The notes under the pieces: model-generated
Told to the model about the DNA's origin: nothing
The model's input: only the letters and a program-made list of their open reading frames with translations
Database searches by the model: none
Source of the DNA: Natronorubrum halalkaliphilum
Lineage (GTDB): Archaea > Halobacteriota > Halobacteria > Halobacteriales > Natrialbaceae
Direction of reading: 5' to 3'
Length of the DNA: 64,000 nucleotides
NCBI RefSeq assembly: GCF_009834785.1
Contig: NZ_WUYX01000021.1
Span: 1 to 64,000, forward strand
Program-made: the position numbers and the translations under genes
Part shown: in pieces, positions 6,189 to 13,836 of the stretch
Layout: the number at the start of each line of letters is the position of its first letter
How positions within the stretch are numbered: the stretch's first letter is position 1

Positions 6189-9100
6189 ATGAGCAGGTTC
6201 GACGAGGTCGACGACCAGTACGATCCCCACGCCGTAGAGCAACGGGTCTTCGACTACTGGGACGACGTCGACGCCTACGAGCAGACGGTCGAGCACCGAT
6301 CGGACGGCGAATCGTTCTTCTTCGTCGACGGCCCGCCGTACACGTCGGGATCGGCACACATGGGAACCACCTGGAACAAGTCGCTGAAGGACGTCTACAT
6401 CCGATTCATGCGGATGCAGGGGTACGACGTGACGGACCGTCCGGGCTATGACATGCACGGGCTTCCCATCGAGACGAAAGTCGAGGAACAACTCGGCTTC
6501 GAGAACAAGAAGGACATCGAGGAGTACGGCGAGGAGAACTTCATCCAGGCGTGTAAGGAGTACGCCAATGAGCAACTCGAGGGACTCCAGGAGGACTTCA
6601 AGTCCTTCGGCGTCTGGATGGACTGGGACGATCCCTACCGGACCGTCACTCCCGAGTACATGGAAGCCGCCTGGTGGGGCTTCTCGAAGGCCGCAGACCG
6701 CGGCCTAGTCGAGAAGGGCCATCGCTCGATTTCCCAGTGTCCACGCTGTGAGACCGCCATCGCGAACAACGAAGTCGAGTACGAAAACGTCGAGGACCCC
6801 TCGATCTACGTCAAATTCGATCTCTCCGAGCGCGAGGGCTCGATCGTTATCTGGACGACCACGCCGTGGACGATCCCCGCGAACACGTTCACCGCCGTCG
6901 ACCCCGAAGGCGACTACGTCGGCGTCCGTGCGGTAAAAGACGGCGAGCGCGAGCCACGAGACGGAGAACTCCTTTATCTCGCCGAAGCGAAACACGAGGA
7001 AGTCCTCAAGGAGGGACGCTACGAAGAGTACGAAGTCGTCGAAGAGCTCACCGGCGAGGAACTGATCGGCTGGTCCTACGACCACCCTCTCTCCGAGGAG
7101 GTCCCCGACCACGCCGACCATGAGGGCGCACTCGAGGTGTACGCCGCCGACTACGTCGACACGCACGGCGACGGCACCGGGCTGGTCCACTCCGCACCCG
7201 GCCACGGTGAGGAGGACTTCGAGCGCGGTCGCGAACTCGGCTTCCCGATCTTCTGTCCCGTCGGCGGCGACGGCGTCTACACCGACGAAGCCGGCAAGTA
7301 CGAGGGACAGTTCGTCAAAGAAGCGGACGAGGAGATCACGGCCGACCTGGACGAGAACGGCGCGCTCCTCGCGTCGGGTACCGTCCACCACAGCTACGGT
7401 CACTGTTGGCGCTGCGATACGGGCATCCTCCAGATCGTCACCGACCAGTGGTTCATCACGATCACGGACGTCAAAGACGAGTTGCTCGACAACATCGAGG
7501 ACAGCGAGTGGCACCCCGACTGGGCTCGAGACAACCGCTTCCGGGACTTCGTCGAGGAGGCTCCGGACTGGAACGTCTCCCGTCAGCGCTACTGGGGCAT
7601 CCCGCTTCCGGTCTGGACGCCCGAGGACCGGGACGACGACGAGGACCGAATCGTCATCAGCGAGCGCGAGGAGCTCGCCGAACGCGTCGATCAGGATATC
7701 GACCCCGCAACCGTCGACCTGCACAAGGACACGGTCGACGACCTCACCATCACCGAAGACGGAACTACCTACACGCGCGTACCCGACGTCTTCGACGTCT
7801 GGCTCGACTCCTCCGTCGCCTCGTGGGGGACGCTCGACTTCCCGTCCGACGACAGCCAGTTCGACGAGCTCTGGCCCGCCGATTTCATCCTCGAGGCCCA
7901 CGACCAGACGCGGGGCTGGTTCTGGTCCCAGCTGGGGATGGGGACCGCCGCGATGGGCGAAGTGCCCTACGACACGGTCCTGATGCACGGCCACGCGCTG
8001 GACGAGGACGGCCGCAAGATGTCCAAGTCCGTCGGGAACGTCGTCGAACCAGACGAGGCTATCGAGCGCCACGGCTCCGACGCGATGCGCATGTTCCTGC
8101 TCTCGGCGAATCCACAGGGCGATGACATGCGCTTTTCCTGGGAGGAGATGGGGACGATGGAGAACCACCTCCGGACGCTGTGGAACGTCTTCCGGTTCCC
8201 GCTGCCGTACATGCGGCTGGACGGCTTTGACCCGGACGAAACCACGCTCGAAGACGTCGACGAGGATCTCGAACTGATCGACGAGTGGATTCTCGCTCGC
8301 CTGCAGTCCACCGAGGCCGAGATGACCGACCATCTCGAGGAGTTCCGCCAGGACCGCGCCCTCGAGGCGCTTATCGAGTTCGTCGTCGAAGACGTCTCAC
8401 GGTTCTACATCCAGGCCGTTCGCGAGCGCATGTGGGAAGAGGAAGACAGCGACTCGAAAAACGCGGCGTACGCGACGATCTACCGCGTGCTTCGGGAAAG
8501 CGTCGCGCTCCTCGCCCCCTACGCGCCCTTCGTCAGCGAGGAGATCTACGGAACGCTGGCCGGCGACGCCGAGCACGACACCGTCCACATGGAGGACTGG
8601 CCGACGGTCGAGGAGTACTGGCAGGACGAACAGCTCGAGACGGATGTCGCCATCCTCCGTGCGATCGAGGAAGCCGGCGCGAACGCGCGCCAACAGGCCG
8701 GCCGGAAGCTTCGCTGGCCCGTCCCGCGCGTCGTCGTCGCCGCCGACGACCAGCGGACCGTCGAAGCCGTCGAGCGCCACACCGCGCTGCTCGAGGATCG
8801 GCTCAACGCCCGCGAGATCGAACTCGTCTCGCCAGACGACCGCTGGGGCGAACTGAACTACAGCGCCGAAGCGGACATGAGCGAACTCGGCCCGGCCTTC
8901 GGCGACCGGGCGGGCCAGGTCATGAACGCGCTCAACGAAGCCCGTATCGACGAACCGGGCCTCGAAGCGATCGAGGCGGCCGTCGAAGACGTGCTCGAAG
9001 ACGGCGAGAAAATCGAGGAATCGATGGTTTCGTTCGTCACGCAGACGCCCGACGGCGTCGCCGGCACCGCCTTCGGCTTGAACGGCGACGACCGCGGCGT

Positions 9101-12055: not shown

Positions 12056-12598
12056 TTACGCGCCCTCGACCAGAAACACACACGCCTCGTCCCCGTCGCG
12101 AACGCAGGCCCGTTTCGTGACGGTCGCGTCGGCCTCGAAATCGGCGGCGAACCCCTCGAGAATGCCGTGGGCCAGCGCGCAGTAGACCGTCTCCCGATGC
12201 GTCCGATACGTGACGCGTGCACGAGCAGGCGACTCTCGAGTACAGGATACCGCCGGCAGCGAGTTCGCATTGGTCGTCGCGTCGACGGCCTCCGCGATCG
12301 ACTCTACGTGCTCGAGAAGATCGAACAGGCCCCATTCGTTGCGAACGTGAGCGTTGAACGTGGTCAGCAGTTCGGGTCCGAGCGTCCGACCGAGATCGCG
12401 TTCGATCTGTGGCCGTTCCTGGACCGCCATCGACGACAGCGTCTCGAGGATCACCTCGATTTCGTTATCATCGTAGGCGGAGACGGGCAGATACAGCGTC
12501 GACTCGATCCCCGTGCGGTCGACGATCGACTGCCAGGTCTCCTCGTCAGTCTTCGCGACGACGTACTCTTTGACGGTTTTGTGGACGATTCCGTGCAT
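12056..12598 (-). CDS. H-NOX-like heme NO/O2-binding domain protein
   Basis: A 180-residue stand-alone domain resembling H-NOX (HNOB) proteins, which bind heme b and sense NO or O2. The N-terminus MHGIVHKTVKEYVV matches the family opening. His97 in FDLLEHVES is the candidate proximal heme ligand. YRTHR (131-135) corresponds to the heme-propionate-binding YxSxR motif with Ser replaced by Thr. A C-terminal Cys-rich stretch (Cys165, Cys173) is haloarchaea-like. No histidine kinase or diguanylate cyclase partner is adjacent, so its output is unknown. It is convergent with the HExxH gene. Confidence 0.8.
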   Translation of the reverse strand: MHGIVHKTVKEYVVAKTDEETWQSIVDRTGIESTLYLPVSAYDDNEIEVILETLSSMAVQERPQIERDLGRTLGPELLTTFNAHVRNEWGLFDLLEHVESIAEAVDATTNANSLPAVSCTRESPARARVTYRTHRETVYCALAHGILEGFAADFEADATVTKRACVRDGDEACVFLVEGA

Positions 12599-12748
12599 CT
12601 GACCTGGTGTGTCGTGGACTGCTATTGAGGGTCGAACGCGCTGCGCTGTCCCGTCGGGGCGACCCCTTCGAACGGCTAGTAGGTTACTCAGTGTACAGTA
12701 GTCACTTAACAGTTACAAAGATAGCGGCCGAGGGGAGAGCGATACTGA

Positions 12749-12829: not shown

Positions 12830-13684
12830 CTACAACTGCGCTGCGAGCGACGGCGCAACCGAAACTGCACTCGTCTGTCCCTCGATCGTATCGGTCCCGT
12901 AGATCGTCTCGACGCCCGCTCGAGACAGTTTCGTAACGGCGTTACGGGCGAGCAGCGGGTGGACGCAGGTGACGAAAACCCGACCGACGTCTCGCTCCTG
13001 CAGGACGCCAACGGCTTCGCTCATGGTCGACCCCGTTGCGATGATGTCGTCCGTGACGACGACGTCGCGGCCGGCGACGTCGACGTCGCTGGGCGTGATC
13101 TCGACCTCGGTGCCCGAGTGGCGCGTCTTCTCGAAGTAGTCCGTCTCGCCGTCGCCGTAGGCGTCTCGGACCGTTTCGGCGAGTTCGACCGCTCCCGCGT
13201 CGGGCGAAAGGAAGACCGGGTTCTTGAGGGCATCCGGGAGCGGTTCGGCGAGCTGGTCCGCCGCGTCGACGGCGGTCGCCGTCGGTTCGAAGAACTCACA
13301 CACCGCTTTCTCGTGGGGGTTGACGGTCAGCACGCGATCCGCGCCGGTCGAAATCGCCCGGGCGACCGCCCGCGCGGAGACGGGGTGGCCCGACTCGAAG
13401 GCTCGGTCCTGCCGGCCGTAGCCCATGTACGGCACGACGGTGACGACGTCTTCGGCACCGGCCTCGCGGACGGCGTCTTGAAGCTGGAGGAGTTCGAGGT
13501 GTGCGTCGCTCGAGACCGTCGAGCCGACGATGATCGCCCGATCGTCGTCGAACTCGGGAACGGCGGCGAGCAGTTCGCCGTCCGGGAACCGGTCGTACTC
13601 GACGACGGCGAGCGATGCCTCCAGTTCGCGGGAGAGCGCAGCGGCAAGCGCCTGCGATTCGGAGCCGCTGACGATCGTAGTCAT
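12830..13684 (-). CDS. prs: ribose-phosphate pyrophosphokinase (PRPP synthase)
   Basis: A 284-residue enzyme that transfers pyrophosphate from ATP to ribose 5-phosphate, giving PRPP for nucleotide and histidine synthesis. The PRPP-binding loop is at 209-221 (VVTDDIIATGSTM). The flexible-loop segment YGRQDRAF (89-96) and the VNPHE ATP-site region (121-125) also fit, and length fits archaeal class enzymes. The frame is open 18 codons upstream, but ATG 13684 (MTTIVSGSES) matches the family. The stop codon is followed directly by a palindromic element. Confidence 0.95.
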   Translation of the reverse strand: MTTIVSGSESQALAAALSRELEASLAVVEYDRFPDGELLAAVPEFDDDRAIIVGSTVSSDAHLELLQLQDAVREAGAEDVVTVVPYMGYGRQDRAFESGHPVSARAVARAISTGADRVLTVNPHEKAVCEFFEPTATAVDAADQLAEPLPDALKNPVFLSPDAGAVELAETVRDAYGDGETDYFEKTRHSGTEVEITPSDVDVAGRDVVVTDDIIATGSTMSEAVGVLQERDVGRVFVTCVHPLLARNAVTKLSRAGVETIYGTDTIEGQTSAVSVAPSLAAQL

Positions 13685-13836
13685 ACTCGAGTGGACAGCG
13701 CGGGGGATAAACCAGTTTTCGTTCTCGATGTCGGTCACGTCGAGTGGCGGGTGACGGGACGGTACCGGAAGGCGTCGGTTGTGGGGATGGAACCAGCGGT
13801 GAGCGTCGGCAATCGTAGAGCCGGCACAGGACGACT

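Follow-up and report, generated by a model that had tools for sequence, protein, structure and literature searches.

A stand-alone H-NOX-fold protein of a haloarchaeon and its clade without the proximal heme histidine

The window analysed here is a stretch of 64,000 nucleotides from the salt-lake archaeon Natronorubrum halalkaliphilum. The gene under study encodes a protein of 180 amino acids with an HNOB domain. It is preceded on the same strand by prs and followed by a gene with CARDB and Ig-like matches. Neither of these neighbors is a recognized signaling partner, in agreement with the preliminary description of the locus, which had noted no adjacent output partner. The genes and the conserved element between them are located as follows (group B is defined below).

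12056..12598, minus strand: group-B HNOB/H-NOX-fold protein, 180 amino acids, with the ATG at 12598 (open reading frame, Pfam HNOB match and predicted fold)
12704..12717, minus strand: AT-rich element TGTAACTGTTAAGT, 106-119 bases upstream of the ATG, where conservation within the prs-HNOB spacer is highest when 8 genomes of the genus are aligned
12830..13738, minus strand: prs, ribose-phosphate diphosphokinase, the conserved upstream neighbor (NCBIfam NF002095, 308.3 bits)

The protein matches the Pfam family HNOB (PF07700) with 80.3 bits (cut-off, 25.5) over positions 1-162 of the 163 positions of the profile. H-NOX chains in the PDB are found with an E value of 5e-8 when the single sequence is used and of 5e-23 when a profile of 32 of the 76 group-B rows is used, and the best profile match is the H-NOX protein of S. 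oneidensis. The AlphaFold model, which was calculated from 35 rows, has a pLDDT of 86.7 and a pTM of 0.85, and residues 35-40 fall under a pLDDT of 50. Foldseek ranked 4u99_A first (TM = 0.86/0.83), and H-NOX or guanylate cyclase chains occupy the first 49 places among the best 50 of 549 matches. The best structural alignment is that with chain 4u99_B of S. oneidensis H-NOX (Z-score = 21.4, 2.2 Å, 177 residues). The TRAPPC3/Bet3 fold can also be superposed on residues 38..180 of the model (Z-score = 11.4, 136 residues) and ranks below the 41 H-NOX/guanylate cyclase rows listed. In profile searches, the scores for V4R (21.8 of 31), MetOD1 (19.2 of 23.8), and MsvR (21.6 of 220) are each under the cut-off, and the Pfam matches of the protein include no DNA-binding domain. 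As judged from its sequence and predicted structure, the protein is a stand-alone member of the HNOB/H-NOX-fold family. A chance or isolated HNOB match is ruled out by the 76 full group-B rows, 72 of which follow prs.

Relatives were searched for with PF07700. In the class, represented by 391 genomes with a completeness of at least 90%, 88 genomes and 27 of 84 genera gave a match, which does not agree with the earlier remark that H-NOX domains are rare in archaea. Matches were also found in 31 of 61 relatives and in 23 of 294 genomes drawn from the phylum, a sample that overlaps the other sets. The full haloarchaeal HNOB domains number 126; 50 have the proximal histidine of H-NOX proteins (group A), and 76, including the window protein, do not (group B). 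At the proximal column, the group-B residues are Tyr (41), Val (10), Ala (10), Thr (8), Arg (2), Ile (2), and Ser, Leu, and Phe (1 each). The start codon of the window protein is backed by the alignment, in which an MHG start is common to all 76 group-B rows. In family f22 of the phylum, the proximal histidine is present in 7 of 7 full rows. Strong HNOB matches of 140.6-148.5 bits were observed in this family outside the haloarchaeal order (L094-L100).

Six partial or broken sequences (L030, which is in three pieces, L068, L101, L102, L104, and L169) were left out of the 133-row alignment, and consequently the genomes G019, G021, and G370 are untyped and 85 of the 88 matching genomes are typed. 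Among these 85, 44 have group B only, 27 have both groups, and 14 have group A only. Group B therefore stands without group A in 44 of the 71 typed genomes that bear it; the window's genome, with a single HNOB gene, is one of them. Because the labels A and B come from the proximal column itself, the neighboring genes and the tree serve as independent support for the division.

The codons that bear on the proximal ligand are as follows.

12290..12295, minus strand: codons of Ala102 and Glu103, the site of the proximal heme histidine of canonical H-NOX proteins (Ala102 by MAFFT; Glu103 by phmmer and the profile; limited to residues 101-106 by the structural alignment)
12308..12310, minus strand: codon of His97, which is ruled out as the proximal ligand (a histidine in 4 of the 76 group-B rows)

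The proximal histidine on helix F is absent from the window protein and from every one of the 76 group-B rows. In the MAFFT alignment, which comprises 133 domains and two reference stretches, Ala102 falls in the proximal column, and His97 is aligned with a lysine of 6OCV. The phmmer alignment likewise pairs His97 with the lysine of 6OCV and pairs the reference histidine with Glu103, where the profile alignment also puts the site; His97 is thus located 5-6 residues ahead of the ligand site in the three sequence alignments. The structural alignment consists of 177 pairs between residues 1..180 of the model and residues 1..179 of the chain, with at most 3 residues unpaired on one side and at most 2 on the other. 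If this alignment is taken as sequential, the partner of S. oneidensis His103 has to be one of residues 101-106 of the window protein, which are Ile, Ala, Glu, Ala, Val, and Asp, with no His, Cys, or Met among them. Taken together, the three sequence alignments and the range allowed by the structural alignment rule out His97 as the proximal ligand, the role that had been proposed for it. A small register shift that masks a histidine was also rejected: between residues 85 and 121, no column contains more than 5 histidines in the 76 group-B rows, and L018 is the only one of these rows with a histidine within four columns of the proximal column. In the window model, His97 sits at a break between two helices (residues 91-96 and 98-108), whereas the group-A control, the first HNOB protein of Halocatena marina at L230:4421-4969, has a single helix at residues 91-108 and a histidine at residue 103 in the same fold (pLDDT = 89.1, Z-score = 22.9). 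The initial reading as a stand-alone H-NOX-like heme sensor holds for the fold, on the HNOB score and the Z-score given above, and is not supported for the heme-based NO/O2 function.

Other parts of the canonical heme pocket and a Zn-type cysteine triad are retained, as listed below.

12194..12208, minus strand: YRTHR (residues 131-135), a variant of the YxSxR propionate clamp (Tyr, Ser/Thr, and Arg together in 68 of 76 group-B rows)
12179..12181, minus strand: Cys140 of a Zn-type triad, aligned with a cysteine of S. oneidensis H-NOX 4U99 (Cys in 67 of 76 group-B rows)
12104..12106, minus strand: Cys165 of the triad (Cys in 66 of 76 group-B rows)
12080..12082, minus strand: Cys173 of the triad (Cys in 71 of 76 group-B rows)

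The YRTHR motif is present at the position first described. Counted singly in group B, Tyr131 is kept in 74, Ser/Thr133 in 75, and Arg135 in 71 of the 76 rows; threonine occupies position 133 in 37 of them, and the change from serine is hence not the unusual feature that it had been taken for. The conserved proximal proline is present as Pro115 (72 of 76 rows), and Asp44 is kept in 74 of 76. All 50 group-A rows keep YxSxR, the cysteine triad, and HG at residues 2-3. Cys165 and Cys173 had been described as a C-terminal cysteine pair; both exist, and with Cys140 they form a triad aligned with the cysteines of the S. oneidensis protein rather than a mere pair. The whole triad is found in 66 of 76 group-B rows, in which the fourth position is Glu (31), Lys (30), Gln (3), or His (2). 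The corresponding residue of the window protein is Lys162, as opposed to His or Gln in the Zn-site subset of H-NOX proteins. At least one cysteine of the triad is lost in 10 of the 76 rows; all ten retain Tyr131, Ser133, and Arg135, and eight retain His6. A redox switch therefore cannot serve the whole clade, and the pocket is more constant than the cysteine site.

The retained clamp and Pro115 would also fit a protein that still binds heme through another ligand, such as the first-helix residue His6, or weakly with no protein residue as ligand. His6 is conserved in 72 of 76 group-B rows and never occurs in group A, where the residue is Leu (39), Phe (7), Met (3), or Tyr (1); from this distribution, it is a possible ligand, and a candidate specific to group B. 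On the other hand, His6 is replaced by Phe in three and by Pro in one of the 76 rows. Residue 5, not residue 6, is presumably the one that lines the distal pocket in H-NOX structures, which counts against a ligand at His6. According to the title of entry 2kil, the structure of S. oneidensis H-NOX carrying the H103G mutation was determined in an Fe(II)CO ligation state, and the missing histidine alone therefore does not exclude heme. On balance, we regard heme binding by such a route as unlikely.

The gene neighborhood divides the two groups in the same way as the proximal histidine. A co-directional prs gene is found no more than 900 bases upstream in 72 of 76 group-B loci (the exceptions being L019, L023, L028, and L164) and in 0 of 50 group-A loci, and the spacer between prs and the HNOB gene has a median length of 126 bases (range, 78-542). 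Transducer genes were searched for by blastp with three group-A-adjoining transducers as queries (E = 1e-8). A chemotaxis-type transducer gene was found within 1500 bases in 39 of 50 group-A loci versus 0 of 76 group-B loci; one group-B locus has a transducer at 4.5 kb, and in the group-A loci L086 and L088 the locus ends approximately 0.3-0.5 kb from the gene. The MCP signaling domain was detected in both of the two A-adjoining transducers that were scanned. The arrangement of a group-A H-NOX gene followed by a downstream transducer gene (L032:6526-8746, L039:7633-9733, L174, L175, L191, and others) is a candidate archaeal gas-sensing chemotaxis pair.

The fixed place of group B after prs could mean that these proteins are partners or regulators of PRPP synthetase. 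However, the entire neighborhood is conserved, so that the position may simply be inherited, and the two genes also occur apart. Among the best 30 prs loci from 59 genomes of the order, an HNOB gene stands beside prs in 10 and not in 20. Of the latter, within the stretch covered, 14 have ileS facing prs, 1 has just a relative of the secreted-protein gene that follows the HNOB gene, and 5 have neither; two of these five belong to genomes (G171 and G058) with a group-B gene elsewhere. Furthermore, the long spacer and its AT-rich element, which is conserved in the genus, suggest separate transcription and speak against co-transcription with prs. The TGTAACTGTTAAGT element is possibly the core promoter of the HNOB gene itself, or an operator. 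Its core, TAACTRTTA, occurs upstream of the group-B gene in 9 of 76 cases, and the whole window contains two copies of it on each strand. A role as a partner of PRPP synthetase is quite improbable.

In the maximum-likelihood tree of the 133 rows, in which the proximal column was included, group B forms one side of a branch with a support of 100/96 that is recovered in 100% of 200 bootstrap trees. This phylogeny, which had been suggested as a check, places the window protein in a single clade, and it is a clade from which the proximal histidine is absent. With f22 as the outgroup, group B is nested in group A beside His-bearing rows (L081 and, from each of three tandem group-A pairs, the second copy); since the outgroup branch is long (2.92), the root is unsure. 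A single loss of the proximal histidine is the simplest account. Two group-A H-NOX genes occur in tandem at L230:4421-5534 (Halocatena marina) and also at L175 and L191, and in the tree the second copy of each pair is closely related to group B.

In 11 chosen pairs of close genomes, dN/dS is 0.04-0.39 for group B, 0.03-0.18 for group A, and 0.05-0.33 for prs. A relic or purely structural HNOB domain that is slowly decaying would be consistent with the higher value of group B than of group A in 10 of the 11 pairs, with a median dN/dS of 0.52 over the 2121 more or less distant group-B pairs with a usable synonymous distance, a value probably inflated by saturation of synonymous sites, and with the broken copy beside prs in G021. 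The close-pair values are nevertheless well below 1, and the 76 full rows are free of inner stops; in a 32-row subset of group B, 12 columns are invariant and 25 others nearly so. Accordingly, decay is very improbable, and the sequences are read as evolving under purifying selection in close pairs, with group B apparently under weaker constraint than group A. The broken group-B copy of G021 is in pieces in different frames (L067, near 7850-8110), and another is seen at L030.

Finally, the view that the protein is a classical heme-based sensor of NO/O2 that uses His97 as its proximal ligand has the HNOB fold, the YxS/TxR motif, and Pro115 in its favor, but it is extremely improbable given the distance of His97 from the ligand site in three alignments, the few unpaired residues available for the needed shift in the structural alignment, and the rarity of histidine at position 97.

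The window protein is probably a haloarchaeal H-NOX paralog from a lineage in which the proximal heme histidine disappeared, in the simplest case by a single loss, and that now acts as a heme-independent sensor with the H-NOX fold. Group B would have split from heme-type H-NOX proteins and then lost the histidine, and, lacking the axial ligand, it would not read NO or O2 through a heme iron. In the members that have the Zn-Cys site, a change in its redox state may instead drive the movement of the two H-NOX subdomains. A ligand with a carboxylate group, bound by Tyr131, Ser/Thr133, and Arg135, may be an alternative or additional driver. In a structure of the Nostoc H-NOX protein, BAY 60-2770 reportedly takes the place of the heme. 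The output of group B would be contact with a partner protein encoded elsewhere than next to the gene. More broadly, and tentatively, group B may be a natural prokaryotic H-NOX clade without heme that senses redox state at a Zn-Cys site or a carboxylate ligand occupying the vacated heme pocket, parallel to the alpha subunit of soluble guanylate cyclase (sGC), with its sister group A being an archaeal heme sensor connected to chemotaxis-type transducers.

A clade with the fold and the clamp and without the iron ligand could show what the H-NOX fold does without heme, and group B offers natural proteins for testing heme-independent signaling by redox or by a ligand; group A suggests that haloarchaea couple gas sensing to chemotaxis-type transducers. 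The fold itself is known. As far as the open-access literature was searched, the loss of the proximal histidine across a whole constrained prokaryotic clade is new, and for H-NOX in haloarchaea or Halobacteria nothing beyond a mention in a reference list was found in that literature. According to the available text of one survey (PMC7108781), the proximal histidine is absolutely conserved in 598 BLAST relatives of the Vibrio protein; because that survey rests on such relatives, distant kin like group B would be missed.

Among known systems, S. oneidensis H-NOX (4u99, 4u9b, and 2kii) is the best structural and profile match, and its counterparts of Tyr131, Arg135, Pro115, and the three cysteines align with those of the window protein, which differs in lacking the proximal histidine and in having threonine for serine at position 133. 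The zinc of the S. oneidensis protein is described as bound by three cysteines and His161 (available text of PMC7108781), whereas the window protein has a lysine at the place of this fourth ligand, and no kinase neighbor was seen at its locus. The H-NOX protein of V. cholerae shares the three-cysteine site, and its heme-free form is documented in the same text to be switched by cysteine oxidation at the Zn-Cys site, a heme-independent response; its relatives hold the proximal histidine, and group B does not. The C-terminal, cysteine-bearing part of the window protein resembles V4R, MetOD1, and MsvR at scores below their cut-offs, and the cysteines of the V4R domain of MsvR are reportedly important for DNA binding that depends on redox state (PMC3729527, in the text available). 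The closest kin are the haloarchaeal group-A proteins, which differ in their proximal histidine, their uniform YxSxR motif, and their nearby transducer genes. The H-NOX domain of the sGC alpha subunit, which is reported to bind no heme (available text of PMC6839917) and exists beside a heme-binding paralog, is comparable to group B; it is, however, a domain of a heterodimeric cyclase, whereas group B is stand-alone and often occurs in genomes without group A. From the precedents of V. cholerae H-NOX, sGC alpha, and the crystal structure of Nostoc H-NOX with BAY 60-2770 (title of entry 4iae), we infer that group B may signal without a heme iron.
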